From Acidobacteriota bacterium (GTDB taxonomy: Bacteria > Acidobacteriota > Terriglobia > Acidiferrales > UBA7541): a stretch of 64,000 nucleotides of DNA. Location: assembly GCA_003223215.1 (NCBI GenBank), contig QHYH01000084.1:248001-312000 (forward strand), read 5' to 3'. Made by a program: the position numbers and the translations under genes. Shown piece by piece: positions 9,367 through 23,294 of the stretch (the stretch's first letter is position 1; every line of letters begins with the position of its first letter). The notes under the pieces are model-generated. The model was not told the DNA's origin. It searched no databases and saw only the letters and a list, made by a program, of their open reading frames with translations.

Positions 9367-11208
9367 CTATTGCTCGTAGGCGCCGATGTCGATGTTACTG
9401 CCTTGTACGCGCGGATTGGCAGCAACGTCTAATATACCTACGACCGTCGGCCCTAAGTTGATGCCCGCGTTGACGCCCGGTGAAGTCGGCTGGATTTGCA
9501 GGTTAGGCGTGGTCAGGCTCAAGAACTGCGGATCCATATACTGAGAATGGCTATCCTTCCCGGTCGCTGATTGGAAGGTCGAGAAACCACTGTGGGGTGT
9601 ACTATTCCAGATAAAGCTCGCCATTGAAGAATTCAACAAGGAGTAATACAGGTTGTAATCCACGTCCGCCGGGTCGGGCTCGCTGTTCGTGTAGTTGTTG
9701 ATAAACAGGCCCTGCGACGAGGCATAAACAATATTATTCTTGAAAACGTTGTTCGTCGCGTAGTACTGGATCTGAAACTCACCGCTCCCTGTGTTTTTCG
9801 TATCGTTCTGGAACAGGGTGTTATTGACAATCGTGCAGTGGTCAGTGCCGCCCACGTTGCTGGCGTATCCTCCAATCGTGATGCCGATCGAATTCGCCGA
9901 ATACACTAGGTTGTTCCGCGCTATCACAAAGCTAGTTACGTGGCCCCGGTGCTCGCTGGCCATCTCGATACCGATGTCTACGTGATGGATCAGGTTGCGC
10001 TCGATAACCACCTGAGAGCCACCATCCACATAAATGCCATTGGCATCGTACTGGTTACCTTCCCCAGGATTGTTGATCGCCGAAATGTTGTAGACGGTAT
10101 TACCCGCGACCGTACCGTTGCGGGCGTAATCGTACGAAGGGTCGGGCGAAACGCCTTCGAAACCAATAACGTCGATGCCGATGTTGTCGTTGTCGTGGAT
10201 GCTGTTGTTTGTGATGACGAAGTTTGTGACGTTCCCATCGACGTTGACCGATTCGCTTTGACCGGTCTTGAGGTTATAAACCTGGTTGCCGCTGATCGTG
10301 ACGCTATCGAGGGAAGCGGGTGCTGCCGTGCCGTAAACGGCGATGCCAAAAGCGTTGCCGCTGGCTTCAGAGGTAGTCACGATGTTATGAACCACGTTGT
10401 TCAGTATCTGGATGTTGCTGCCTGAGCCCGACACCCAGATCCCTGCTGGAATAGCAGACGCACTGGAAGTCTGGTAGTTGCGGATCTCAAACCCCTGGAT
10501 AGATATGTAGCTTTGATTCGTTATGTTGATTAAACCTTGCGTGCTCGAGGTGGGGGGCACTAGTCCCGTGCCATCTACAATCGCGGTCTCACCGGGGTAG
10601 CTTTGGAATGTAATCGGGCCTGCTATAGCTGACCCTGATACAGAAATGTTCACCGATTCGTTGAACACGCCACCACGCACGTAGACGATGTCCCCGGCCT
10701 GTACGGAATTGGCCGCACGCTGGATAGTTCTCCACGGAGAGGAGAGTGTGCCCGGATTGGAGTCACTGCCCGTGGTCGAAACGTAGAAAGCTATGCCTGC
10801 AACCGCCGTGATCGTCACTTGCGCCGCGGCTGACTTTGTGGCGTCCGCCTGAGATACGGCTGTCACCGTCACGGTGGCCGGATTCGGGACGACTCCAGGC
10901 GCTGTGTACAGACCCGAACTCGAAATCGTGCCTACCGTTGCATTGCCCCCGGTCACCCCGTTCACTTGCCAAGTCACCGCGGTATTGCTGGTGTTCTGCA
11001 CCACCGCGCTAAACTGCTGTGTTCCGCCGGCGGCCACCGTCGCCAAGATAGGCGAAATGGTGACGCTCACCGAAATAGGCGTCGGTGTCGTGGACACGCC
11101 CGCACAGCCAACGGTCTCCAATACAGTCACTCCCACGGCGGCGAGCCACACCCAAGAAGCAAGTAGGTCTAGCGTTTTTCGTGTCCAACCACGGCGATCA
11201 GTTTTCAT
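9367..11208 (-). CDS. Exported parallel beta-helix protein with N-terminal Ig-like domain
   Basis: This protein has 613 residues. The N-terminus has a twin-charged start, a hydrophobic stretch (LLASWVWLAAVGVTVLETVG) and Cys at about 35, so it may be a lipoprotein, although the lipobox (TVGC) is poor. Residues ~45-135 form a Big2-type Ig-like domain (SVTISPILATVAAGGTQQFS). Then comes a DUF1565-like opening, FYVSTTGSDSNPGTLSSPWR, and a long right-handed beta-helix with repeated N-rich rungs (IQILNNVVHNIV, FVITNNSIHDND). The ending DIGAYEQ is typical of this class. Such folds are used by pectate lyases, polysaccharide epimerases and adhesins; no catalytic set can be assigned. It lies close to the exopolysaccharide locus but on the opposite strand, so a role in glycan modification is only a guess. 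Confidence 0.85.
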   Translation of the reverse strand: MKTDRRGWTRKTLDLLASWVWLAAVGVTVLETVGCAGVSTTPTPISVSVTISPILATVAAGGTQQFSAVVQNTSNTAVTWQVNGVTGGNATVGTISSSGLYTAPGVVPNPATVTVTAVSQADATKSAAAQVTITAVAGIAFYVSTTGSDSNPGTLSSPWRTIQRAANSVQAGDIVYVRGGVFNESVNISVSGSAIAGPITFQSYPGETAIVDGTGLVPPTSSTQGLINITNQSYISIQGFEIRNYQTSSASAIPAGIWVSGSGSNIQILNNVVHNIVTTSEASGNAFGIAVYGTAAPASLDSVTISGNQVYNLKTGQSESVNVDGNVTNFVITNNSIHDNDNIGIDVIGFEGVSPDPSYDYARNGTVAGNTVYNISAINNPGEGNQYDANGIYVDGGSQVVIERNLIHHVDIGIEMASEHRGHVTSFVIARNNLVYSANSIGITIGGYASNVGGTDHCTIVNNTLFQNDTKNTGSGEFQIQYYATNNVFKNNIVYASSQGLFINNYTNSEPDPADVDYNLYYSLLNSSMASFIWNSTPHSGFSTFQSATGKDSHSQYMDPQFLSLTTPNLQIQPTSPGVNAGINLGPTVVGILDVAANPRVQGSNIDIGAYEQ

Positions 11209-12181
11209 GGCTTGCTAACATAGCATCGTGTAGAAACCGGCGTTCGCTGAATAGCTGCCTATGAATCCTAAAGGTACATGTCCCCTTGCAGGCGAGGACT
11301 CTTCTTGCGTTGCGGAACACAGAAAGGCGGGTACGCACTTCCTTCAAGCAGACCCGAGGGTGTTGCGCGCCAAGCGGCCATCCATGGACGGACAATGCGG
11401 ATCGTTGCGGCGCACAATGCCAACGTGTAATCGCCCTGGGCAAATGAAGACTATAAAGACTGTGAAGGCTATGAAGACGGGGCACTCTGACTGTCTCCCT
11501 ACCGTGTCGCCAAGCTCACCTCCGTCGATCACGAGATCGGCGTCAATCCTGCCTGGCCTGTCAATCAAACTTCAAGTTTATTCGGATTCGGGGCAGTACA
11601 CCCACCAGTTTTTCGATTTTCCCACTATCCAGCAGGCGCCTGCGATGGCTTCATCCACACTTTTTTGCTTTCTTTCCTCCTTGGGAAACAGCCGACGCGC
11701 CACCTCCCAGCTGGCGACCGTGGCAGAGATCGGCAATCTGAATGGCCTGAATGGCGTCTGGCGTAGCAGTTTGGGTGTGTCGCGGCGGACCCTTCTACTC
11801 TTCTTCGCCCGTGCCGAACGCCTATTTGGGCCTCGCGAAAGCAGGAGTTTTGCCTACAGGTTCTTTATGTATGCAAAAATAGGAGATTAACCGGGTAGTT
11901 TCCTGGTGGCGCGGGAGTAACATGGTTCCAGCCACGGGAGGGTGTCACGTTTATGGCCTCCCACAAGGGGAGCGCTCAAAAAAGAATCCGACGGTGCCCC
12001 CTAGGATTTGCTAGGTGCGGGACCCGACCGCCGCGGGGGTGCGAACAGAGATGATGTCCGTCAATCATCCCCTGTCCCTCGAACACCCAGAGGAAAGTCG
12101 ATCGCAATCACAATCCGACGCAGACGTCAGAGGAAACCGCGCGAGATTTGGCTCTCAGATCTTTCGTAGAGAAAGTAACGA
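11209..12181. other. Long non-coding stretch, 973 bases
   Basis: No convincing gene. It contains a 9-bp tandem repeat (noted separately) and an inverted repeat near 11927-11977 (GGGAGG...CCTCCC). On the minus strand around 11500-11565 the phrase GRIDADLVIDGGELGDT faintly recalls the TsaC/Sua5 family, but it is too short to call. The last 150 bases should hold the promoter of the LuxR-type gene. Confidence 0.4.
11447..11480 (+). repeat. 9-bp tandem repeat, about 3.7 copies
   Basis: The units are AAGACTATA, AAGACTGTG, AAGGCTATG and AAGACGG, imperfect but in register. It lies in a long gene-free stretch. Its function, if any, is unknown; slippage origin is plausible. Confidence 0.6.
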
Positions 12182-12793
12182 ATGAGTGTGGCCATGGACG
12201 TTCCATCAAAGTTGAAGGAGTCGGTCGCCCAAGCAGTCCCGCCGGTGCCGAAGGAGGGAGAGGGTCCGCGCAAGAATGCGTCAGGATTCCTTCTAATGGA
12301 CTCCTCACTGCGCCCCGCCTGGTGCAATGCCGAGGCCATTAGGATCCTTAGTTATCCCGACAAACTCGCAAACCTAACGCCTGATGTCCTCCTTACGGCA
12401 AGAATTCAGTCGAGCCTAGTAAGCCGGCAGGCCCGTGGGGAATCGCCGTTTGTGAGTGAGTTCTGGTCAGGCAGGCGACGTTATTCTTGCCGCTCATTGT
12501 TCTTAGATTCATGTGCCGAAGACCCTCCGCGCCCGTACATCGGCGTCCTGCTAGAAAGAAGGCCCTCCGGATTGGCCCCATGGTCGCAAATCTCGGGGCT
12601 GTTCAACCTCACGGAACGTGAGCGAGAAGCGTTGGAGTATTTGCTGCAAGGTCTAAGCAACAAGGCGATTGCGAATCGCATGAACATCAGCCCCAACACA
12701 GTGAAGGCCTATATGCGCACGATCATGATCAAGACCGGCGCTACTTCGCGGTCCGCAATGCTACGCAAAATTATCTTGGGCCAACCGCAGTAA
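12182..12793 (+). CDS. LuxR-type transcriptional regulator
   Basis: The protein has 203 residues. The C-terminal ~60 residues are a GerE/LuxR helix-turn-helix: FNLTEREREALEYLLQGLSN, then KAIANRMNISPNTVKAYMRT with the conserved L-T-x-R-E, the scanning helix and the VKxxM recognition helix. The N-terminal part (GFLLMDSSLRPAWCNAEAIR) resembles a small PAS-like sensor, common in acidobacterial LuxR proteins lacking a receiver domain; there is no phosphoacceptor aspartate pattern. The ATG at 12182 has a weak upstream RBS (GAGAAAG). It stands alone, 480 bases before the secreted deacetylase gene and on the same strand. Control of the exopolysaccharide locus is an inference from position. Confidence 0.82.
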   Translation: MSVAMDVPSKLKESVAQAVPPVPKEGEGPRKNASGFLLMDSSLRPAWCNAEAIRILSYPDKLANLTPDVLLTARIQSSLVSRQARGESPFVSEFWSGRRRYSCRSLFLDSCAEDPPRPYIGVLLERRPSGLAPWSQISGLFNLTEREREALEYLLQGLSNKAIANRMNISPNTVKAYMRTIMIKTGATSRSAMLRKIILGQPQ

Positions 12794-13275: not shown

Positions 13276-15909
13276 GTGATGAAGCAGCCGTTCCGCTTTT
13301 GTGCTATTTCCACCGGATTCGTGGTCCTCACGTTCATGCTCTGTTCGGCCACAATACAAACCGCGCAAGCCCAGACTTGCTCGACGTCGACGATCGACAT
13401 GAAGCTGCTGGTGGTCACGAATGGAAGAACGGAGGCCGATTTCCCAGCGATTAAGCAGATCCTCGACTATCTGGGCACGCCCTACGACGTTTTGGATATG
13501 ACCGCCAACACAGGAGGAATTACTGCCTCGATGTTGTTCGATGGCAGTTGCCACGGTTACTACCAGGGCGTGATCTTCGCCTATGGCGGATACATCTATA
13601 CGCTACCAGGCATGTCGATCCTGACCGCCTACGAACAAAAATTCGCGATACGCCAAGTGAACTGGTACATGTATCCGAACAACGACTTTGGATTCAACTA
13701 TCCCTATAACGGCGTTATTACTTCCGCTGGCACCGCCAGCGCCAGCTTTACCAGCGCGGGGGCATCGACTTTCTGGTATGCAAATACTGTCACACCGCTT
13801 ACCATCTCGAATGCTTACACCTATCTGGGCACACCGCTCAGTGCGCTGCCGTCGGGGGCTTCGGTAACGCCCTTGCTCACGGACGCCTCCGGCAATGCCC
13901 TGGTGCTGATCTACGCCCTTGGCGATGGGCGGCAATATCTCACCCAGACCTTCGACAGCAGTCCATATCTAATGCATGATTTGATCCTGGCCTATGGTCT
14001 TATCAACTGGGTTACGAAGGGCATTTTCCTCGGCGAATATCACGTGTTTGCTGCCGCGCAGGTGGACGACTTTTTCATTAATGGCTCGGAATGGACACCG
14101 GGGACGCCGTGCACCAATCCAGTAACTCACGACCGCACCGCGCCGGACGCCACCTCGCTGCCGTTTTTTAGAATCAACTCCGCGGACATGAATTCCTTGG
14201 TGGCTTGGCAGAACAAGTTTCGAAGCGACCCCTTACTTTCAAATTTCAAACTGACCCTGGCCTTCAACGGCGTCGGCACGACGGGCAACAAGGACTGGAC
14301 CGGCCTCCCCTCCCCTGGCGTCGCCAATGACGACTTGACCGCTAACGTTCAGAACTACCAACAATACTTCCACTGGATCAGTCACACCTACGACCACCCA
14401 AACAGCCTGAACGGCTTGCACAAATCCGATCCATATGGCGACCCGGACACCCCGCAAGTTGACTCCATCGATCTGGAGATCCTGACAAACCAGTACGTGG
14501 CAAACGGCACAGGCCAGAACCTGGATCCAGACCCGAGCGACAGCGTCAGCCCGATTCATTTGACGGACTTCAATCCGGCGAACCTTGTAACTCCAGGCGT
14601 CACAGGTCTGAACGACACTTTGGTTCCCTCTTATTTGGTTCAGGATGGCATCCGCTACGTGGTGAGCGATACCTCGGTCCTCGGACAGGCGAATAATGGT
14701 CCCAATCCATCCCCGAACGTGGGCATGGTTAACAGCTATGCGCCCAGTGTGTACGAGGTGCCACGACATCCGAACGACATCTTCTTCAACGCAGTGAACT
14801 GGGCCGACGATCAAGCCGAGTTTTCCTGCATCTACAATAATCCCGTACAACCGCCCTTTAACACCTTTGCCGCGCCACAGATTCTCGATTACGTGAGCTC
14901 AAGCTTCGTTTCGAACATGTTGATCGGAGATATAGACCCGCAGATGTTCCATCAGAACAACCTGCACGACTATGACGGGCAAGGTCACTCGTTGCTGAGT
15001 GATGCGTACGATCAGACTTTCAGCAAGTACGAACGGGTCTACAACCTGCCGGTCCTCAGCCCCACGCTCGACCAGTTGGGGCAGAACATGCAAAATCGCA
15101 ACGCCTACAACCTGTCGACCGCCACGGCGAGCCTCACGGGCCTCGCCGGATCGAATCTGACGATCAGTATCACCGTGCCTGCGACAGCAACCGTTCCGAG
15201 CGCGACCATTCCGGTCACCGGCCTGTACACTGTCGGAGCGGAAAGCTATGGAGGACAACAAATCTCCCACGTGCCGGTGAGCAGGGGCCTGACGATCACA
15301 CTGCCCGTGACACCTGCACCTCCTATAGGTATCTATTCGCTGACATTGAACCCAACCAGCGTCACAGGCGGCGGCCCGCAACCCTCCATCGGCACAGTGA
15401 TGCTGAGCGGGTTAGCTCCGGCAGGCGGTACACAAGTTACTCTTTCCAGCAGCAGCGCGTTAGCTAGCATTCCTCCCAGTGTGGCGGTTCCGGCGGGAAG
15501 CACCACCGCAACCTTCACGATCAACACCAGCGCGGTGGCCACATCGACGGTAATCACGATCTCAGCGTCCTATGCTGGCGCGAGCAAATCGGCGTCGCTC
15601 ACCGTGACTCCTCCACTCCTTCCAATGGTCTCTTCGCTGACGTTGAACCCTACCAGTGTCGTTGGCGGCGTGCAATCCTCTACCGGCACGGTGACGCTGA
15701 GCGGGCCCGCTCCCACAGGCGGTGCGCAAGTTACCCTTTCCAGCAGCAACGGGGCGGCCAGCGTTCCGGCTAGCGTGACGGTTCCGGGCGGAAGCAGCAG
15801 CGCAACCTTCACGGTGAACACATCTATCGTTCTCGTGTCAACTTCTGCCACGATTTCGGCTTCCTATAGCAGTACGACTCAAACAGCAAGTCTCGCGGTA
15901 TTGTTGTAG
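13276..15909 (+). CDS. Secreted NodB-fold polysaccharide deacetylase (Agd3/CE18-like) with two C-terminal Ig-like repeats
   Basis: This 877-residue protein carries a signal peptide (cleavage near residue 33, AQA-QTC). Residues ~40-250 form an N-terminal domain (KLLVVTNGRTEADFPAIKQI) with the layout of the carbohydrate-binding region of Agd3. The catalytic domain begins at AAAQVDDFFINGSEW, with Asp264/Asp265 as candidate base and metal ligand, and includes SHTYDH with His370 and His374 as the other metal ligands: the D-H-H set of NodB-fold deacetylases. Residues from ~690 on are two tandem Ig-like domains (SLTLNPTSVTGG and SLTLNPTSVVGG). Fungal Agd3 de-N-acetylates galactosaminogalactan. With PelF, a spherulin-4-like glycosidase and a PelG-like protein downstream, deacetylation of an amino-sugar polymer is the likely role. 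The CE18 assignment rests on architecture and motif pattern only. Confidence 0.7.
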   Translation: MMKQPFRFCAISTGFVVLTFMLCSATIQTAQAQTCSTSTIDMKLLVVTNGRTEADFPAIKQILDYLGTPYDVLDMTANTGGITASMLFDGSCHGYYQGVIFAYGGYIYTLPGMSILTAYEQKFAIRQVNWYMYPNNDFGFNYPYNGVITSAGTASASFTSAGASTFWYANTVTPLTISNAYTYLGTPLSALPSGASVTPLLTDASGNALVLIYALGDGRQYLTQTFDSSPYLMHDLILAYGLINWVTKGIFLGEYHVFAAAQVDDFFINGSEWTPGTPCTNPVTHDRTAPDATSLPFFRINSADMNSLVAWQNKFRSDPLLSNFKLTLAFNGVGTTGNKDWTGLPSPGVANDDLTANVQNYQQYFHWISHTYDHPNSLNGLHKSDPYGDPDTPQVDSIDLEILTNQYVANGTGQNLDPDPSDSVSPIHLTDFNPANLVTPGVTGLNDTLVPSYLVQDGIRYVVSDTSVLGQANNGPNPSPNVGMVNSYAPSVYEVPRHPNDIFFNAVNWADDQAEFSCIYNNPVQPPFNTFAAPQILDYVSSSFVSNMLIGDIDPQMFHQNNLHDYDGQGHSLLSDAYDQTFSKYERVYNLPVLSPTLDQLGQNMQNRNAYNLSTATASLTGLAGSNLTISITVPATATVPSATIPVTGLYTVGAESYGGQQISHVPVSRGLTITLPVTPAPPIGIYSLTLNPTSVTGGGPQPSIGTVMLSGLAPAGGTQVTLSSSSALASIPPSVAVPAGSTTATFTINTSAVATSTVITISASYAGASKSASLTVTPPLLPMVSSLTLNPTSVVGGVQSSTGTVTLSGPAPTGGAQVTLSSSNGAASVPASVTVPGGSSSATFTVNTSIVLVSTSATISASYSSTTQTASLAVLL
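15335..15906 (+). repeat. Two tandem Ig-domain coding repeats
   Basis: The units at about 15335-15630 and 15631-15906 share long stretches at DNA level, for example the CCAGCGTC, GGCGGT and TTTCCAGCAGCA segments. Each encodes one ~92-residue Ig-like domain ending in TISASY. Recent internal duplication within the deacetylase gene is the simplest explanation. Confidence 0.75.
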
Positions 15910-16088
15910 AAACATGCAGACGTCAAAGAATCCAAATAGCTGGTGCGCGGATCCAGGAGATCTTCGATTTCGAGTCTCGAAAAGGTCCGGCGACGCAGCA
16001 TCCAGTCGACGCCCAGGATCTGGCACGTACAGGTGCCAAACACTGTTACTGCCAGTGCTTTAGACAGGACAGATAGAAAGGGGTTACC

Positions 16089-17324
16089 GTGAGCAAGATA
16101 TTCGACGCCTTGACCATCGTGCGCGAGGAGAGGCTAAAATCTTTGCCGCCCGTAGACAGGGAGCCCGGGCGCGGCTCGTCCGATGTCTTGCAGAGGTCCG
16201 TCGTTCCCACGGACGTGGATCTGTTCGGCGGGTTGGAACCTACCACCCGGCTTCCCGGCAAGGTCGCCTTATCACATAAAAAGATCAGAAATTACTTGAT
16301 GCTTGCCCTTTTTGCAGCCGGGCTGGTGCTGCTGGGAACGAATTATGCATTTCACCCGCATGGAAATGTATTCGCCAACAGCCAGTCGGTCTACGGAGTG
16401 GCATTCGAAGGCACAGTTCGCCCGGCCAGTGAGATCCGCATCACGGCCGAGTCCACCGGCACGGTCTCCAACATTTCGGTCAAGGTGGGCGATAGGGTGC
16501 AAACGGATCAGCAGCTTCTGAGAATGGATGATCGCGACGCGCAATTGGCCGTCAAACAGGCGAGCGTCGAGCTCCAGACGGCCCGGGAAAAACTTGACAG
16601 ATTTCGCGGACAGCTGGCCGACGCGGACGCCCGAGTGGCCATATCGCAGCGTCAAGAGCAGCTAGTACCGACCCGGCAATGGCGGGACTCTCCCGAACGG
16701 GCTGCAGCCGCTTACGACATAGCTTCGCTCAACTACGGCCGTGCCAAAAAACTGTTCGAAGCAGGACTCATTGCGCAACAAGAGCTGGATGCTCGAGCTA
16801 CGGAGCTGCGCATGGCCCGGGATGACCTGGAAAACGCCAAGCAGCTGGCGGCAGTATCAACGAAACTGGCGCACGATCAGGTCGACCAGGCCAACCTGCA
16901 AGCCAAGGTCACGCGCGAGGAATTACAAGAGCAATTGCGCCAGGCGGAAGTGAATTATGAGCGCGCCAAGCTGCAGGCCGATCGAACCGTAGTGCGTGCC
17001 ACGACTGCCGGTGTGGTCTCCGAAATCCCCGTGCGCTTGGGAGATCGTGTTCCTGGCGGCGCGGTCCTTGCGCGGCTGGCAAAGCTCGATCATATGATCG
17101 CGGAAGTCCCGGTGGCAGCGCAGATGATTTCGGAGCTGAGCCTCGGCCAGTCGGCGCAAGTGGGGCTGTTTTCTTCTCCCCCGCGCAAGGTGGAAGGCAG
17201 AATCCGAACCATCGATCCGCTCCCCTCTCAGAACATGACCCACATCGTCGAAGTGGAATTCGATAATCCAACTATCCTGCTGGTGGCGGGTCAGCCGGCA
17301 GAGGTTAAATTTATGAAACCATGA
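16089..17324 (+). CDS. HlyD-type membrane fusion (periplasmic adaptor) protein of the exopolysaccharide locus
   Basis: This protein has 411 residues, with a GTG start at 16089 preceded by GAAAGGGG. A ~65-residue cytoplasmic head (MSKIFDALTIVREERLKSLP) resembles the first helix of polysaccharide tyrosine kinases (Wzc/CpsD type). One membrane helix spans residues ~69-88. A lipoyl-like half motif follows (TAESTGTVSNISVKVGDRVQ), then a long alpha-hairpin of ~150 residues, the second lipoyl half (VRATTAGVVSEIPVRLGDRV) and a beta-barrel. HlyD proteins bridge inner-membrane transporters to the outer membrane. No ABC or RND pump is encoded nearby, so the partner may be the PelG-like flippase. The stop overlaps the next start (ATGA at 17321-17324), which implies translational coupling to pelF. 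Confidence 0.88.
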   Translation: MSKIFDALTIVREERLKSLPPVDREPGRGSSDVLQRSVVPTDVDLFGGLEPTTRLPGKVALSHKKIRNYLMLALFAAGLVLLGTNYAFHPHGNVFANSQSVYGVAFEGTVRPASEIRITAESTGTVSNISVKVGDRVQTDQQLLRMDDRDAQLAVKQASVELQTAREKLDRFRGQLADADARVAISQRQEQLVPTRQWRDSPERAAAAYDIASLNYGRAKKLFEAGLIAQQELDARATELRMARDDLENAKQLAAVSTKLAHDQVDQANLQAKVTREELQEQLRQAEVNYERAKLQADRTVVRATTAGVVSEIPVRLGDRVPGGAVLARLAKLDHMIAEVPVAAQMISELSLGQSAQVGLFSSPPRKVEGRIRTIDPLPSQNMTHIVEVEFDNPTILLVAGQPAEVKFMKP

Positions 17325-18853
17325 ACGACCAAGAACCGATTTCCGTTCTGCTGACAACGGAAGGAACGTATCCCTTCTATACCGGTGGTGTGAGCACGTG
17401 GTGCCATCGGCTCACGCACGGCTTGCCCGACATAGACTTCACGGTGCTCGCCGTGGTTACCAACCCGTCGCCCCGGTCAAAATACGGCCTCGCACCCAAT
17501 GTGCGGGAGGTGATTAAAGTGCCACAATGGGGCCTGCTGCAGCCCGCCGAATATTCAGGTCATCAACCGACTTCTGTGGTGCTGCACCATCTATGGAATA
17601 CCACGCCCCACGTCATCGCTGCCCGTTTCAAACCAATCTTCCAACGATTCCTTGGTCTTTTGTTCTCTCCTAATTGTGACAAGGAAGAACTTGGCCAACT
17701 TTTGCTCCAATTGCATCTTTACTTTCAATGGTTCGACTACCAGAAAACCATGGATTCTCTAGACGCCTGGAACGCCCTTCAGGACGCGCTCGCCGCTGCA
17801 TGGGCGCGCCGTCCACCGCCCACGGAACAGCCAACCCTCGCTGAAGTGAAGCAAGTCTATCGTTTCTTATATCACTTGCTGATGGTGCTGCACTTCCCCA
17901 TTCCTAACTCAGACATTGCCCATTCGTCGGCAGCGTCTTTCTGCGGGGTTCCCTGCGTGCTGGCAAAGCTCGCGCATGGCACGCCCTATCTGCTGACCGA
18001 GCACGGGGTCTATTTGCGCGAGCAATATTTGAACCTACGTCGGCAGGTGGAGTCATTTGTTGTTCGCTGGTTTCTTTACCGCGTGATTGAAAACGTGGTC
18101 GAATTGAATTATTACTTTGCCGACCTGGTCGCGCCGGTGTGCGCCTTCAATGCGCGCTGGGAAAAGCATCTAGGCGTGCCCGAGAGCCGCGTCCAGGTAA
18201 TCTTCAATGGTGTTGATCCCGAGAAATTCAGCCCCCAGCGGCAGGAAAACGGCCGCCGCGCGCGGGTTTCGAGTCTCGGCCATATTTATCCCCTGAAAGG
18301 GCAGCGCGATTTAATTGATGCAGCTGTCATGCTCAGGCCGAAGTTCGACAACCTGGAAGTATGTTTCTATGGGACGCCTTCCGACCGCGAATATTTCGAG
18401 TCCTGCCTAGCCAAGGTCGCGCAGTCGAAACTGGACGACTGCGTCAGTTTTGCGGGCCCCACAACGGAGCCGTGGAGAGCGTACAACGAAGCCGAGGTCA
18501 TGGCTTTCCCTAGCATTTCCGAGGCCTTTCCCTACGCTGTGCTCGAGGCTATGTCGTGCGGCGCCGCAATCGTTGCCACGGACGTGGGAGGAGTAAGAGA
18601 AGCCTTAGGCGATTGCGGGCTGCTGGTCCCCGCCAGGACGCCGCAGGCGATGGCCGAGGCCATTTGTTTCTTACTGAGCAGTCCGACAACGCGCAAACAA
18701 TTGGGGCAGATGGCACGGGCGCGCGTGCTCAAACATTTTACGGAGGAACAATTCTTGAGGTCGTACGCAAGCACTTACTCAAAGTTGCGTTGCGACCGGT
18801 CCCAGCAGCTCTTACCGGCAGATCATCCGAAATCGGAGTATGTGTGCGGTTAG
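17321..18853 (+). CDS. pelF: Pel-type exopolysaccharide glycosyltransferase PelF (GT4)
   Basis: The 510-residue protein opens with the PelF hallmark VLLTTEGTYPFYTGGVSTWC, followed by PDIDFTVLAVVTNP and VPQWGLLQPAEY. The donor-binding half has VIFNGVDPEKFSP, the GHIYPLKGQRDLI strand-loop and the GT4 E-x7-E motif in SEAFPYAVLEAMSCG (Glu401 and Glu409). PelF is the cytoplasmic UDP-sugar polymerase of the Pel pathway, using UDP-GalNAc in Pseudomonas. It overlaps the HlyD gene by 4 bases and the following glycosidase gene by about 10, so it sits in the middle of a tightly coupled operon. The family assignment is strong; substrate specificity here is inferred. Confidence 0.92.
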   Translation: MNDQEPISVLLTTEGTYPFYTGGVSTWCHRLTHGLPDIDFTVLAVVTNPSPRSKYGLAPNVREVIKVPQWGLLQPAEYSGHQPTSVVLHHLWNTTPHVIAARFKPIFQRFLGLLFSPNCDKEELGQLLLQLHLYFQWFDYQKTMDSLDAWNALQDALAAAWARRPPPTEQPTLAEVKQVYRFLYHLLMVLHFPIPNSDIAHSSAASFCGVPCVLAKLAHGTPYLLTEHGVYLREQYLNLRRQVESFVVRWFLYRVIENVVELNYYFADLVAPVCAFNARWEKHLGVPESRVQVIFNGVDPEKFSPQRQENGRRARVSSLGHIYPLKGQRDLIDAAVMLRPKFDNLEVCFYGTPSDREYFESCLAKVAQSKLDDCVSFAGPTTEPWRAYNEAEVMAFPSISEAFPYAVLEAMSCGAAIVATDVGGVREALGDCGLLVPARTPQAMAEAICFLLSSPTTRKQLGQMARARVLKHFTEEQFLRSYASTYSKLRCDRSQQLLPADHPKSEYVCG

Positions 18854-19974
18854 CTTTGGCTACTATGACGCTCGCCGGGTCAAGCTTGTTTTTTGCCAAG
18901 ACCATCGTCCCGGCCACTACTTCGACTCTCGCGCGCCTGGCCATCTATTACGGGTATCCCAGTCTGGTCAATGGGGCCAACGGAGATTTGGAGAAGGCGG
19001 CACGTGTGTTTAGTGCGTACGACGTGGTGGTCTTGGGCGATGGCCTGGAGTTCCCGGACCAACAGTCCGGGCGCTACCCCCCGGGGGACCCCGGGGAGCA
19101 CCAGAAGACCCTTGGGATAATCGCGGCTGTCCGGGATCTCAGCCCCGGGACGCGTTTTTACGGTTACGTCTGCCTGGGTGAGATTCCAGATCCTGAGGGA
19201 GAAAAAATATCTCTCACGCCCGGGCAATTGGAAGAACGCGTGCGCCTGTGGAAACGCATGGGTGTGGCAGGCATTTTTCTGGATGAGGCTGGCTACGACT
19301 TTGCTGTAGTCACTCGCAAGCGACAGAATATGGCCGTCAGGATCATCCATGAGCTCGGCCTCAGCGCGTTCCTGAATGCGTACTTTCTTGACCATTTGTT
19401 CAGCCTGGAAGACAAACTCCCTTACGCGAATGGTGCGGCGAAGAATCCTGAACGTTTGCCTCCGCTCTTAGACCGGCGTGATCTTTTCCTGCTGGAATCC
19501 TTTCAGGTGCGCAAGGGAAACTACGAAAGTGCTTCCGCCTCGCAAGCACGCTTGAACCAGGCTCTCGATTATCGCCGACGCTTCGGGCCCCGCATTTTTG
19601 CCACCACCACCACGACAGAGCAGGAGCCCTTCAGCGCGGAGAAGTTCAATTATGCTTGGTGGACCGCCCTGCTCTACCGCCTGGATGGTTTTGCGTGGGG
19701 GGAGCCGAACTTTGCTGCGCTGAGCAACACCTTGCCTGATCGTCGCTGCAGCCTGGAGGCCGCCGTGCTCCGGGCTGTTAAACAGTCATCCGCGGTCGAT
19801 TCTGATGGGCGGCGCTTTTGGAGGAGAGCGGGCAGTTTCTTAGTTGTTGCCGATACCGCTACCCATTCCGTCTATCGCGTCCCCACCGATGGCTCGGTCG
19901 AGCCAAAGGAGATCGAAACGCTGTTCAATTCTCCCCGACAGCGATCCGTTCTGACCTGCGGGGGAGGCGCATGA
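18844..19974 (+). CDS. Spherulin-4/GH135-like (TIM-barrel) glycosidase
   Basis: The start is GTG 18844, overlapping the pelF end; ATG 18865 is an alternative. The first ~25 residues are a short hydrophobic export signal (LATMTLAGSSLFFAKTIV). The remainder reads as a beta/alpha barrel: RLAIYYGYPSLVNG, YDVVVLGDGLEF, TRFYGYVCLGEIPD, then GVAGIFLDEAGYDFAV with the Asp147-Glu148 pair at the end of a strand. These strand motifs match the spherulin-4 (GH135) layout and the related GH114 and PelA GH166 domains, all alpha-1,4-galactosaminidases. It probably trims or releases the polymer made by PelF, taking the place of the hydrolase half of PelA. Exact GH family cannot be settled by eye. The stop overlaps the next start (ATGA at 19971). 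Confidence 0.72.
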   Translation: MRLALATMTLAGSSLFFAKTIVPATTSTLARLAIYYGYPSLVNGANGDLEKAARVFSAYDVVVLGDGLEFPDQQSGRYPPGDPGEHQKTLGIIAAVRDLSPGTRFYGYVCLGEIPDPEGEKISLTPGQLEERVRLWKRMGVAGIFLDEAGYDFAVVTRKRQNMAVRIIHELGLSAFLNAYFLDHLFSLEDKLPYANGAAKNPERLPPLLDRRDLFLLESFQVRKGNYESASASQARLNQALDYRRRFGPRIFATTTTTEQEPFSAEKFNYAWWTALLYRLDGFAWGEPNFAALSNTLPDRRCSLEAAVLRAVKQSSAVDSDGRRFWRRAGSFLVVADTATHSVYRVPTDGSVEPKEIETLFNSPRQRSVLTCGGGA

Positions 19975-21506
19975 ATTATCAAGAGGATCAAAAGCTGTTG
20001 TTCGACGGTCGCGAAGGTGCGGTACCGGTCGTGCATGCCAACGAGGTGGCAGCCTTGATGGAGTCTCGGGGGTATACCGATCTCTACGTGAGACAGTGGG
20101 GCTTCCCGGATATTTTTTCCTCAGCCGAGCATCTGTTCACACTCCTTCGACAAAACCCTCTGTCGGACGAGCGGGCCAAACACAAGGGCGGCCGGTTTTC
20201 CCTTTGGGCAGAAACCAGATGCGCGCTGAGGAAGATTTCGCTTAGCTTGGCTTACGCCATCCCTTGGGCGGTGATGCTGACCTTAGAATACTTGCGACCG
20301 GATGCTCTGCGGGTTTCCCCCGAGATCGGGGGGGCATTAAGTCTTTCGCTCATCGCCAGCCTTATAACCACCGGCGGCTGCGTCCAGATGATCTCCCGCA
20401 GCGGGAACTTCTATTACGGGCTGAAGGAGCCCGTTTTGGCGCATCGCATCTGCCTCTCACTCCTGAACATTGCGCTGACCGGCAGTCTTTTTCTGGCGTT
20501 GCTAGGGATGATCGCGGGCGCTTACTTTCATCTATTTGCCGGCAACTACCTGGTGCTGGCGGCCGTCAACTACCTGGCCCTGAGCCTGTTGTGGATGGCC
20601 TGCGCCGTGCTTTCCGCGCAGGGGATTGGCTGGTGCATCCCGTTCATTTTTTTTCTCATTATTCTCGCAAGTTGGTTGATAAAGATTCTCATAAACCCGG
20701 GTACCACCATTCTGTTGATCCTCTGCCCGTTGTTGGCGGTCGGGTGCGCTCTCGGTTGTGTGCTGGCCGGTGCTCATCACGCCGAGAGCAAGCATCCGCA
20801 GAGCAGGCAGAGCGCTCCTCCACGACGCGGCATCCTGCTTATCTCGTTGGTCCCGTTCTATATCTACGGAACCCTCTATTTCAGCTTTCTCTTTGCCGAC
20901 CGACTGGCCGCGGGAAGCGCGGTTCCCTGGGTTTCCGGCTTAAGTTTTGGAATTGACGCCGCATATAAGCAGGCCACGGATATGGTCCTGCTGGCTTTTC
21001 TGATCACCGCCGCACTAGTCGAATATCTCGCTGATTCATTCCTGCGGTTCTGGCAAAGGCTGGCTTCGGAACTGCCGCAAACCGCAAGCGAGCAACTGAC
21101 GGTAAGTCTGTGGAAACGCCACTCGAAAACGATGTCGGCGATCCTTACGGCCTTCGTGGTGGTTGCGTTAAGCGCTTGGTTCGCCTTCTCCCGCTCCAAC
21201 GGCCTGGCGCCCCTTCCCCGATTATTACCGACGGCTGTTCTCGGCGGCATCGGATATCTCCTGCTAAGCCTGGCGCTGCTAGAAATCATTATATTGGCCA
21301 GCACAAACGCTATCTCGATGGCCGCATTTGCTGTAGCACTGGGGCTGGCAGTGAACCTGCTGACTGGATATGGGCTCAGCCATTTGTGGGGAGTGCAATA
21401 TGCCGCCGCCGGGCTGCTCGCCGGGGCTGCTGTGGTTCTGTTGATATCTAATGCGGCGGTTCGACATGTCCTGCGTCACCCTGATTATCATTATTCCATT
21501 TCGTGA
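19971..21506 (+). CDS. Polytopic membrane protein, PelG-like exopolysaccharide transporter
   Basis: This 511-residue protein starts at ATG 19971 inside GGGGGAGGCGC-ATGA, a strong RBS formed by the end of the previous gene. About 90 cytoplasmic residues come first (ALMESRGYTDLYVRQWGFPD), then roughly 12 hydrophobic helices. ISRSGNFYYGLKEP, SFLFADRLAAGSAVPWVSGL, FGIDAAYKQATDMVLLAFLI and LVEYLADSFLRFWQ follow the pattern of PelG, the MATE/MOP-type inner-membrane protein that moves the Pel polymer. PelG of Pseudomonas is about 456 residues, so the extra length is at the N-terminus. Position next to pelF supports the call. I am reasonably sure of the transporter type and less sure of orthology. 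Confidence 0.68.
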   Translation: MNYQEDQKLLFDGREGAVPVVHANEVAALMESRGYTDLYVRQWGFPDIFSSAEHLFTLLRQNPLSDERAKHKGGRFSLWAETRCALRKISLSLAYAIPWAVMLTLEYLRPDALRVSPEIGGALSLSLIASLITTGGCVQMISRSGNFYYGLKEPVLAHRICLSLLNIALTGSLFLALLGMIAGAYFHLFAGNYLVLAAVNYLALSLLWMACAVLSAQGIGWCIPFIFFLIILASWLIKILINPGTTILLILCPLLAVGCALGCVLAGAHHAESKHPQSRQSAPPRRGILLISLVPFYIYGTLYFSFLFADRLAAGSAVPWVSGLSFGIDAAYKQATDMVLLAFLITAALVEYLADSFLRFWQRLASELPQTASEQLTVSLWKRHSKTMSAILTAFVVVALSAWFAFSRSNGLAPLPRLLPTAVLGGIGYLLLSLALLEIIILASTNAISMAAFAVALGLAVNLLTGYGLSHLWGVQYAAAGLLAGAAVVLLISNAAVRHVLRHPDYHYSIS

Positions 21507-21515
21507 GTTTTCCTG

Positions 21516-23294
21516 ATGCCCGCTCTGGATGCCGTAAAGGCTTTTTGGATCCTCGGCATCTTCCTTTGCATGTTTTTTTGGCTTCCCACGCGTCTATTTT
21601 CGGGCAGACCGAATTTTTCCGCGGTCATTTGTATGGCCGGCAACTGGGCCCGTATGGTGCTGTGTGTGACGATCTTCGTTTTTCTCTTGAGCGGTTTGAA
21701 GGTGTTCGGTGCGATCACCGTCGTGCTGCTTTTTTTGGGCGCGATAATTGTCAGTTGGTTTCGCAAGCGTACGGGAATGTCTCGGCGCTTGTTAACAAAC
21801 CTGCAAGCTACGACGATAAATCTAATACGCCACTTTGAATCTCGGTCGTTTGGCCGGTTCCTCGTGCCCGGCAAGAGCTCGTCCAGATCGGCCCGCCCGT
21901 CTTGGGCATCACGCGTAGAGCCGTGGCTGAAAATGCTGGAAGGCAGGGAACTACTGGGCGCCTCCCTTGTCGTGGTGCTGGCAACAAGCGCCGTGCTGCG
22001 CACCGAACATGCGGTTCGGGAACTGCGTTTTGATCAACCTGAACAATACTCTGCTCTGCTGCGCGCACGACAATTGATGCTCAATATCCACCCTGCCGAG
22101 CGACCGGTCGTATTTCCGGCGATGATCGCAACCACGTCCTTCCTTAGCAGTACCGATCCGATGCAGGTCACCCGCTTCCTAACGCCGGCAATCGGCCTAT
22201 TACTGGTTCTGGCCACCGGCTTGCTCGTTCAGGTATCCGCGCGTGCGGGTGTTGCGTCGGTCGCCGCCATGTACTGCCTGGGAGCAGCTGGGTTCCCGCC
22301 CGCCATAAACCAAACAGGCGCGGCAGTTTCCACGACGGGAAAAATGGAGACGATTTTCAGCGCTTCCCCGGCAACCATCCGACCCAGTCCCGAATTTGCG
22401 GTCGGCTTACTATTCCTTCTCTTAGCTCTCGTTTTTCTCGCCGACTGGTATAGGAACTCGCGGGGTTGGGATTCCTTGTTGGATTTCACATGCTGCCTGT
22501 TGTTGACTGCCATGGTTTCCGAAGTTTTGCTCGTAATATTGGTGTTGGCGGCCGGGGTTCTGCTGCTTCGGCCGATGGCGGGCCTCTTCGCTCTGGTGAT
22601 GCTGTGTTATGGATTGGTAGCGTGGGCGTCTTTGTCCGCCGGTATCCATATCCCTGACGAAATGCGCACGATCTTACCGGTTGCCGCAGCCATCCTGGTG
22701 GGTTGCGCCCTTGCGTTTATAAAAGCGCCACTCGTCGCGCGCACCGGCAGGACAACCGCAACGGTACTTCTCGCTGCCTGCCTGGGCGTCGCGGTTATTT
22801 GGTTACGACCGCAAAGGTTCGTTGGCCGATGCCTCGAGTATGAAGCCGCAGCCCGTGCCACCCAGGAAATCGCCTATTCCTTTCCTCGGCAGACGTGGGT
22901 TGTGGCGGCGCCCGTAGAGCAGTTAGCCGAAACATTCGGCTTGGGAGGGCATGAAGATCTGGCCGGATTTGTCCAGAACTATCGCAGCCAGGTCTCGAGC
23001 CCGCGTTTCCACTTTCCGGATGCACGGCAAGATCTGTTTATTTACGTGGAGAAGAGACCGTTTCAGATTTTCTCCCGCGAACCTGAGAAGGTCTCTTTCT
23101 CCGTGCTCAGCGACCCCACGTACCGCAATTATCGCTCACCGGGAGGGCGGGCCAGCTTGGAGGCAGCGGCGCTGCAACTCTGTGAGAACTACCGGCAACA
23201 CCATTCCAACGTCGATGTTTTCTTTGAGAACGAAGTTCTCCGCATCTACCACATACACCAGCAACAAGCTTCGGCCAGCGTGGCTGGACACTGA
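21516..23294 (+). CDS. Unknown polytopic membrane protein closing the exopolysaccharide locus
   Basis: The protein has 592 residues and starts 10 bases after the previous stop. Two N-terminal helices (residues ~10-75) are followed by a basic cytoplasmic loop (~85-140) and then by about eight more helices up to ~445. The last ~150 residues are soluble (TWVVAAPVEQLAETFGLGGH). The layout (helices, then a soluble tail; LNIHPAERPVVFPAMIATTS in the first loop) is vaguely like GT-C/PMT-type glycosyltransferases, but I see no Asp-Glu catalytic loop I would trust. I do not recognise a family. Tight linkage to pelF and the PelG-like gene suggests a part in polymer synthesis or export, possibly standing in for PelD/PelE. 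A hairpin terminator follows 19 bases downstream. Confidence 0.7.
   Translation: MPALDAVKAFWILGIFLCMFFWLPTRLFSGRPNFSAVICMAGNWARMVLCVTIFVFLLSGLKVFGAITVVLLFLGAIIVSWFRKRTGMSRRLLTNLQATTINLIRHFESRSFGRFLVPGKSSSRSARPSWASRVEPWLKMLEGRELLGASLVVVLATSAVLRTEHAVRELRFDQPEQYSALLRARQLMLNIHPAERPVVFPAMIATTSFLSSTDPMQVTRFLTPAIGLLLVLATGLLVQVSARAGVASVAAMYCLGAAGFPPAINQTGAAVSTTGKMETIFSASPATIRPSPEFAVGLLFLLLALVFLADWYRNSRGWDSLLDFTCCLLLTAMVSEVLLVILVLAAGVLLLRPMAGLFALVMLCYGLVAWASLSAGIHIPDEMRTILPVAAAILVGCALAFIKAPLVARTGRTTATVLLAACLGVAVIWLRPQRFVGRCLEYEAAARATQEIAYSFPRQTWVVAAPVEQLAETFGLGGHEDLAGFVQNYRSQVSSPRFHFPDARQDLFIYVEKRPFQIFSREPEKVSFSVLSDPTYRNYRSPGGRASLEAAALQLCENYRQHHSNVDVFFENEVLRIYHIHQQQASASVAGH

Follow-up and report, generated by a model that had tools for sequence, protein, structure and literature searches.

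A probable PelF-dependent exopolysaccharide locus of Acidobacteriota, related to Agd3-PelF operons and carrying an HlyD adaptor and a conserved membrane protein

Six neighbouring genes in an 8.8-Mb draft genome of an Acidobacteriota bacterium raise the question of which exopolysaccharide system they might encode, and by what route its product would cross two membranes. A sequence-only reading had taken them for a hybrid of Pel and fungal galactosaminogalactan (GAG) loci. The window, the whole stretch of DNA that was analysed, comprises 64,000 nucleotides of contig QHYH01000084.1 (C215 of the draft; positions 248,001 to 312,000).

Gene content and layout

A check of the open reading frames in the window identified six plus-strand genes at 13276-23294, all intact and uninterrupted, in the order deacetylase, HlyD, PelF, glycosidase, exporter (G5) and P6, in agreement with the six same-strand genes described from the sequence. 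The ATGA overlaps reported at 17321 and 19971 are likewise present, the first joining the HlyD stop to the PelF start and the second the glycosidase stop to the exporter start. These genes and two flanking ones are as follows.

9367..11208, minus strand: DUF1565 right-handed beta-helix protein, secreted, with an N-terminal Ig-like stretch (Pfam Beta_helix 33.2 bits, DUF1565 28.6 bits, both above cut-off)
12182..12793, plus strand: LuxR-type transcriptional regulator (GerE HTH, E 3.7e-17)
13276..15909, plus strand: Agd3/CE18-type polysaccharide deacetylase, secreted, 877 aa (Pfam Agd3_CE, 6NWZ profile match)
16089..17324, plus strand: HlyD/RND-type membrane-fusion (periplasmic adaptor) protein, 411 aa (HlyD_D23, TIGR01730)
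17321..18853, plus strand: PelF, GT4 glycosyltransferase, predicted polymerase, 510 aa (NF038011, DUF3492, EX7E motif, tree)
18823..19974, plus strand: Spherulin-4-like TIM-barrel glycoside hydrolase candidate, secreted (orthologue matches; approximate start near 18843)
19971..21506, plus strand: MOP-superfamily exporter (G5), distantly PelG-like, 511 aa from ATG (AF2, Foldseek, hhalign)
21516..23294, plus strand: P6, membrane protein of 592 aa, polytopic and ending in an alpha/beta domain (conserved after the exporter; no database family)

The deacetylase gene is separated from the HlyD gene by 179 bp, so it may lie on a separate transcript from the other five genes. The mechanical ORF of the glycosidase opens at 18556, within pelF; judged from its translation, the true start has to be close to where pelF ends (18853), ahead of a signal-peptide-like stretch.

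Secreted enzymes

By profile comparison, the first gene product is a true homologue of the Agd3/CE18 deacetylases. Its architecture comprises a signal peptide, a CBM87-like N-terminal domain, a NodB-fold CE domain and two Ig-like C-terminal repeats. The CE domain scored 64 bits against Pfam Agd3_CE (cut-off 27.6), and the N-terminal domain scored 24.8 bits against CBM87_Agd3, just under the cut-off of 27.6, with a profile alignment to residues 27-267 of 6NWZ (i-Evalue 1.2e-9). When a profile of five deacetylase homologues was searched against the whole PDB, a single protein was returned at E < 0.01, namely Agd3 itself (6NWZ, E 3.1e-16), and the QVDD, SHTYDH and MFHQ motifs align with the catalytic motifs of that structure (Asp-Asp, His-x3-His and a late His, respectively). 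The Ig-like repeats are missing from the relatives in L034, L036 and L068, and the tails are thus not essential.

The fourth gene encodes a candidate Spherulin-4-like TIM-barrel hydrolase. Orthologues match Pfam Spherulin4 below its cut-off (E 1.6e-5, 25 bits against 30.2, and E 1.2e-3), and the window protein itself has no Spherulin4 match in Pfam and no sequence match in the PDB. HHalign gave 44% for GH114 and 29% for Spherulin-4, neither of which settles the family. The acids in DEAGxD and LLESF are invariant across seven aligned members and occur in the same order as the Asp/Glu pair of Sph3, Ega3 and PelA, a comparison by order and not by superposition. Neither GH114 nor GHL13 was found anywhere in the genome that holds the locus.

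PelF and the exporter

PelF scored 136.7 bits against the NCBIfam equivalog NF038011 (cut-off 100) and 137 bits against DUF3492 (cut-off 23.3), and carries a GT4 domain with the EX7E motif EAFPYAVLE at residue 401. In an unrooted tree of 17 rows, all Acidobacterial PelFs that were included form one clade (100/99) that joins the PelFs of Agd3 operons, and the canonical pel PelFs are split from both at 100/100. Annotated Agd3-PelF operons were found on plasmids of Streptomyces, Kocuria, Deinococcus and Thermus.

The AF2 model of the exporter (pLDDT 79, pTM 0.80) matched MOP proteins in Foldseek, namely WzxE, MATE and MurJ, the best match being the lipid III flippase WzxE (E 1.6e-5). Superpositions on these three gave Z 13.6-21 over ~370-410 residues at 4-5.4 Å, with Z ~20 for MATE and WzxE. 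The window exporter has no Pfam hit, PelG included; two orthologues match Pfam PelG below the cut-off (7e-6, and 1.2e-5 with 24.9 against 29 bits), a family on which a true PelG scores 431 bits. With hhalign, the exporter gave only 6% against four canonical PelGs, and 98.9% (E 3e-17) against the PelF-adjacent membrane proteins of the Agd3 operons of Streptomyces, Kocuria, Deinococcus and Thermus, with which it has an N-terminal domain in common. The fifth gene product is thus a predicted MOP-fold exporter that is distantly PelG-like. On these comparisons, PelF and the exporter belong with the Agd3 operons, not with canonical pel.

The HlyD adaptor

The HlyD protein exceeds the cut-offs of both HlyD_D23 (63.4 against 30 bits) and TIGR01730 (RND_mfp, 112.5 against 94.9), and has a cytoplasmic N-terminal extension followed by one TM helix at residues 66-88. 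The N-terminus, encoded at 16089-16150 of the window (MSKIFDALTIVREER), resembles the MSRI-type leader found on tyrosine autokinases that serve bacterial polysaccharide systems. Searches with Pfam and NCBIfam revealed no RND, ABC or MFS transporter and no TolC partner among the six genes, and no gene for an outer-membrane channel lies within the locus; the genome as a whole contains 38 matches to TolC-family (OEP) domains.

For the genes treated so far, the sequence-only reading holds for the secreted NodB-fold Agd3/CE18-type deacetylase with Ig tails (Agd3_CE above cut-off, 6NWZ motifs aligned), for the clear PelF (equivalog cut-off exceeded) and for the HlyD adaptor (both profiles above cut-off). 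Its spherulin-4/GH135-like glycosidase survives as a TIM-barrel resembling Spherulin-4, with GH135 membership unproven at sub-threshold Spherulin4 scores, and its PelG-like flippase is borne out in the MOP fold and in orthologues near the PelG threshold, but not in direct similarity to PelG, which is weak, or in a Pfam PelG match.

P6 and the GT-C question

P6 and its relatives match no meaningful Pfam or NCBIfam family. Its AF2 model is poor (pLDDT 46). Only the C-terminal domain is well modelled; it shows a weak likeness, at background level, to domains of AftD and AglB, both GT-C enzymes (Z 5-6, Foldseek E > 0.3). Because of the poor model, a GT-C reading rests on these weak structural matches and on inspection of the first long extracytoplasmic loop, which carries a [DE]-x-Y motif. 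Of 10 aligned members, 9 have an acid two residues before the invariant Tyr; this acid is absent in L036 and shifted in L069 and L070, two short members, in which it lies one residue later. More distant relatives in L122 and L125, assigned partly by their position directly after the exporter since the matches are weak (E 1e-7 and 9e-6), have a GT-C-like first loop (SDSYVHLY). P6 is perhaps GT-C-derived, which these features do no more than suggest.

If P6 were an active GT-C glycosyltransferase with a lipid-linked donor, the MOP protein would flip lipid-linked sugars, and assembly or modification of the polymer would take place at the outer face of the membrane, not by PelF alone. The loops of L122 and L125, the [DE]-x-Y motif in most members, the likeness to AftD and AglB and the lipid III flippase as top Foldseek match of the exporter all point in this direction. 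Set against them are the low confidence of the model, structural scores at background level, and the loss or shift of the loop acid in L036, L069 and L070, and we regard an active GT-C enzyme as rather unlikely.

Conservation across Acidobacteriota

The six-gene set recurs in six further genomes: three of the same genus (L033, L034 and L035), at 77-94% identity if the deacetylase tail is left aside, and three from other families (L036, L068 and L070 in G167, G468 and G483), at ~22-51% identity. A lack of such conservation was among the findings that would have refuted the sequence-only reading, and none of those findings was made. In L035 the contig stops within the deacetylase gene. The close relatives that share these genes are MAGs of Acidobacteria gp2, and the genomes compared are mostly draft MAGs. 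Gene order varies, with at least three arrangements among genomes that have the full set; that the six genes stay together in different orders across six genomes indicates a functional unit.

Agd3_CE, the DUF3492 domain of PelF and P6 were counted in 396 Acidobacteriota genomes, sampled evenly. Of these, 2 contain Agd3_CE, 9 PelF and 8 P6, the last comprising 7 of the 9 PelF genomes and one other; this co-occurrence has a hypergeometric p of ~1e-12, or 4e-11 without the genome that holds the locus, kinship being ignored. Exporter and P6 genes stand side by side in six families, and some of the PelF-exporter-P6-HlyD cores (G063, G267 and G346) are spread over more than one contig. With P6 in most PelF genomes and Agd3 rare, the core in this phylum is PelF, exporter, P6 and HlyD. 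A TIM-barrel hydrolase usually accompanies it, and Agd3 is an add-on in some lineages. Several PelF-P6 loci lack Agd3, and deacetylation by Agd3 is therefore not obligatory.

HlyD and P6 might still be chance neighbours without function, beside an ordinary Agd3 operon that moved into Acidobacteria. Streptomyces and Kocuria share its core (Agd3, PelF, a membrane protein and Spherulin-4/GH), and Bamford et al. 2020 (PMC7229062) supply a published precedent. But rearranged loci of several Acidobacteriota families still carry HlyD and P6 alongside PelF and the exporter, even where Agd3 is absent, and P6 tracks PelF over the 396 genomes. This co-conservation largely refutes the chance-neighbour account, which we judge improbable.

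The proposition that every Acidobacteriota PelF locus carries Agd3 was rejected, as several do not, and in G223 PelF adjoins a true PelG instead. The latter locus (L126, 1392-12950), from an Acidobacteriota MAG, has the look of canonical pel, and its PelG scores 431 bits; in a sample of 149 Acidobacteriota genomes, no PelG above the cut-off was found. The hydrolase beside P6 in two Agd3-less relatives (L117, 11722-12624; L119, 10496-11524) is of a different TIM-barrel type, GHL15/GH114-like, which indicates that the hydrolase slot has been exchanged. A PIG-L type N-deacetylase lies near an Agd3-less PelF-exporter-P6 locus (L125, 16558-17316), and could be an alternative deacetylase or a chance neighbour. 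In G482 (87% complete), the exporter and P6 genes stand at a contig end, no deacetylase core was found, and a 1407-aa surface-adhesin-like repeat protein adjoins the exporter gene (L069, 3333-7556).

Comparison with known systems

Bamford et al. 2020 (PMC7229062) reported that bacterial agd3 homologues share operons with genes for a glycosyltransferase, a polytopic membrane protein, GH114 and, in Actinobacteria, Spherulin-4, and that Gram-negative operons of this sort include Pel outer-membrane components; the text consulted names neither Acidobacteria nor an HlyD protein. Our locus has the same content: agd3, a cytoplasmic glycosyltransferase, a polytopic membrane protein and a Spherulin-4-like gene, the hydrolase scoring below threshold. 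It thus resembles operons of this type in its Agd3-type deacetylase, GT4 enzyme (PelF in the annotated examples), exporter-homologous membrane protein and GH114 and/or Spherulin-4. However, the operons of this type that we examined have no detectable relatives of HlyD or P6, and they often include epimerase/nucleotidyltransferase genes and GH114, the last absent from the window's genome.

With canonical pelABCDEFG and Gram-positive pelDEA_DAFG, the locus has in common PelF, a MOP-type exporter, a NodB-fold deacetylase and a TIM-barrel hydrolase. Unlike in canonical Pel, the PelA activities are on two proteins, the exporter is only distantly PelG-like and PelF falls in a separate clade. Pfam and NCBIfam searches of the locus revealed no PelA fusion, PelB, PelC, PelD or PelE among the six genes or their immediate neighbours. 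The fungal GAG cluster (Agd3, Sph3, Ega3, Gtb3, Uge3) likewise encodes a CE18 deacetylase and a Spherulin-4-like hydrolase as separate secreted proteins, whereas the bacterial locus has a GT4 PelF, a flippase-type exporter and an adaptor, and no Ega3/GH114. For the adaptor, a parallel exists in cyanobacterial cellulose export, where the HlyD-like XcsB has been proposed, not proven, to link the synthase complex to TolC (PMC12430437); the XcsA-XcsB-TolC system differs in using a cellulose synthase and in having no MOP exporter.

The 'undescribed branch' of the sequence-only reading thus stands in part. The combination of Agd3, glycosyltransferase, membrane protein and glycoside hydrolase is already present in Bamford et al. 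2020, so the kind of operon is known; what is new is the Acidobacterial architecture, with HlyD and P6 where PelB/C/D/E would be. Our search of the open-access literature returned no text naming PelF with HlyD, and for PelF with Acidobacteria only an unrelated phylum survey.

Proposed mechanism

The analysis establishes which genes are present, the families to which profile or fold assigns them, and their joint conservation; the substrate, polymer identity, direction of export, passage via adaptor and TolC, and what P6 and the hydrolase do are inference. We consider it probable that the locus encodes a PelF-dependent exopolysaccharide system, an Acidobacterial branch of the Agd3-PelF operons, that works as follows. 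PelF would polymerise an amino-sugar nucleotide in the cytoplasm, most likely UDP-GalNAc, the GalNAc specificity being extrapolated to this branch. The chain would cross the inner membrane through the MOP-fold exporter, aided by P6, and the HlyD adaptor would connect, across the periplasm, with a TolC-type channel in the outer membrane whose gene lies elsewhere; this route would take the place of PelB/PelC. The abundance of HlyD proteins and the lack of an outer-membrane channel in the locus count against this last step. Outside the cell, the secreted Agd3-type enzyme would strip part of the N-acetyl groups, leaving a cationic, sticky polymer, and the secreted Spherulin-4-like hydrolase would trim it.

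That the cluster instead degrades or remodels a foreign GAG- or Pel-like polymer, for instance a fungal one, with PelF coming from another pathway, is very improbable: the deacetylase and hydrolase are predicted from sequence to be secreted and GAG is present in soil fungi, but the genes for PelF, the MOP exporter and the adaptor lie together with start overlaps and are kept as a set, and the six-gene set includes no uptake or sugar-catabolism genes.

The synthesis and export reading may be extended to a machine of Acidobacteriota's own, in which PelF, the MOP exporter, a GT-C-derived P6 and HlyD-TolC replace PelB/C/D/E altogether. This machine would be older in the phylum than Agd3, with P6 as a new co-polymerase or polymer-modifying subunit. 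We hold this extension tentatively, as plausible rather than probable.

A PelF-dependent system of this kind would extend cationic galactosamine-type polymers, known as Pel in Pseudomonas and GAG in Aspergillus and typical of biofilms of bacteria and fungi, to a dominant soil phylum, and would suggest a different crossing of two membranes, by an adaptor and a TolC channel in place of PelB/PelC. P6 represents an unannotated conserved protein family tied to PelF, and the optional nature of Agd3 provides natural pairs with and without the deacetylase in the phylum.

Related loci and flanking genes

Loci in other phyla were also noted. On a mobilizable plasmid of Kocuria rosea (NZ_CP126484.1, L065, 10705-19773), an Agd3-PelF-membrane protein-Spherulin4-GH114 cassette lies between two copies of the transposase WP_284563886.1 in opposite orientation, an arrangement suggestive of a composite transposon with an exopolysaccharide operon as its cargo. 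Burkholderia stagnalis has Agd3 homologues at 12010-14130 of L060 (105.7 bits) and 12001-13998 of L061, with no PelF-type neighbour found in these stretches. On a Sulfitobacter plasmid (L076, 4354-10411), pelF and pelG stand beside an OPX-type polysaccharide export protein, without annotated PelB/PelC, which we read as another outer-membrane exchange in Pel-like loci.

In the genus of the window genome, the beta-helix (DUF1565) gene accompanies the cluster in G419, G412 and AA101, on differing sides, and its product is probably an accessory of the cluster. The LuxR gene is kept beside the cluster in L033, L035, L037, L039 and L043, which makes its product a candidate regulator. The two genes occur as a pair at either end of the cluster (9367-12793 in the window, 9876-13055 in L035 and 3-2066 in L039), as though the pair belonged to the same module and could change its place there.
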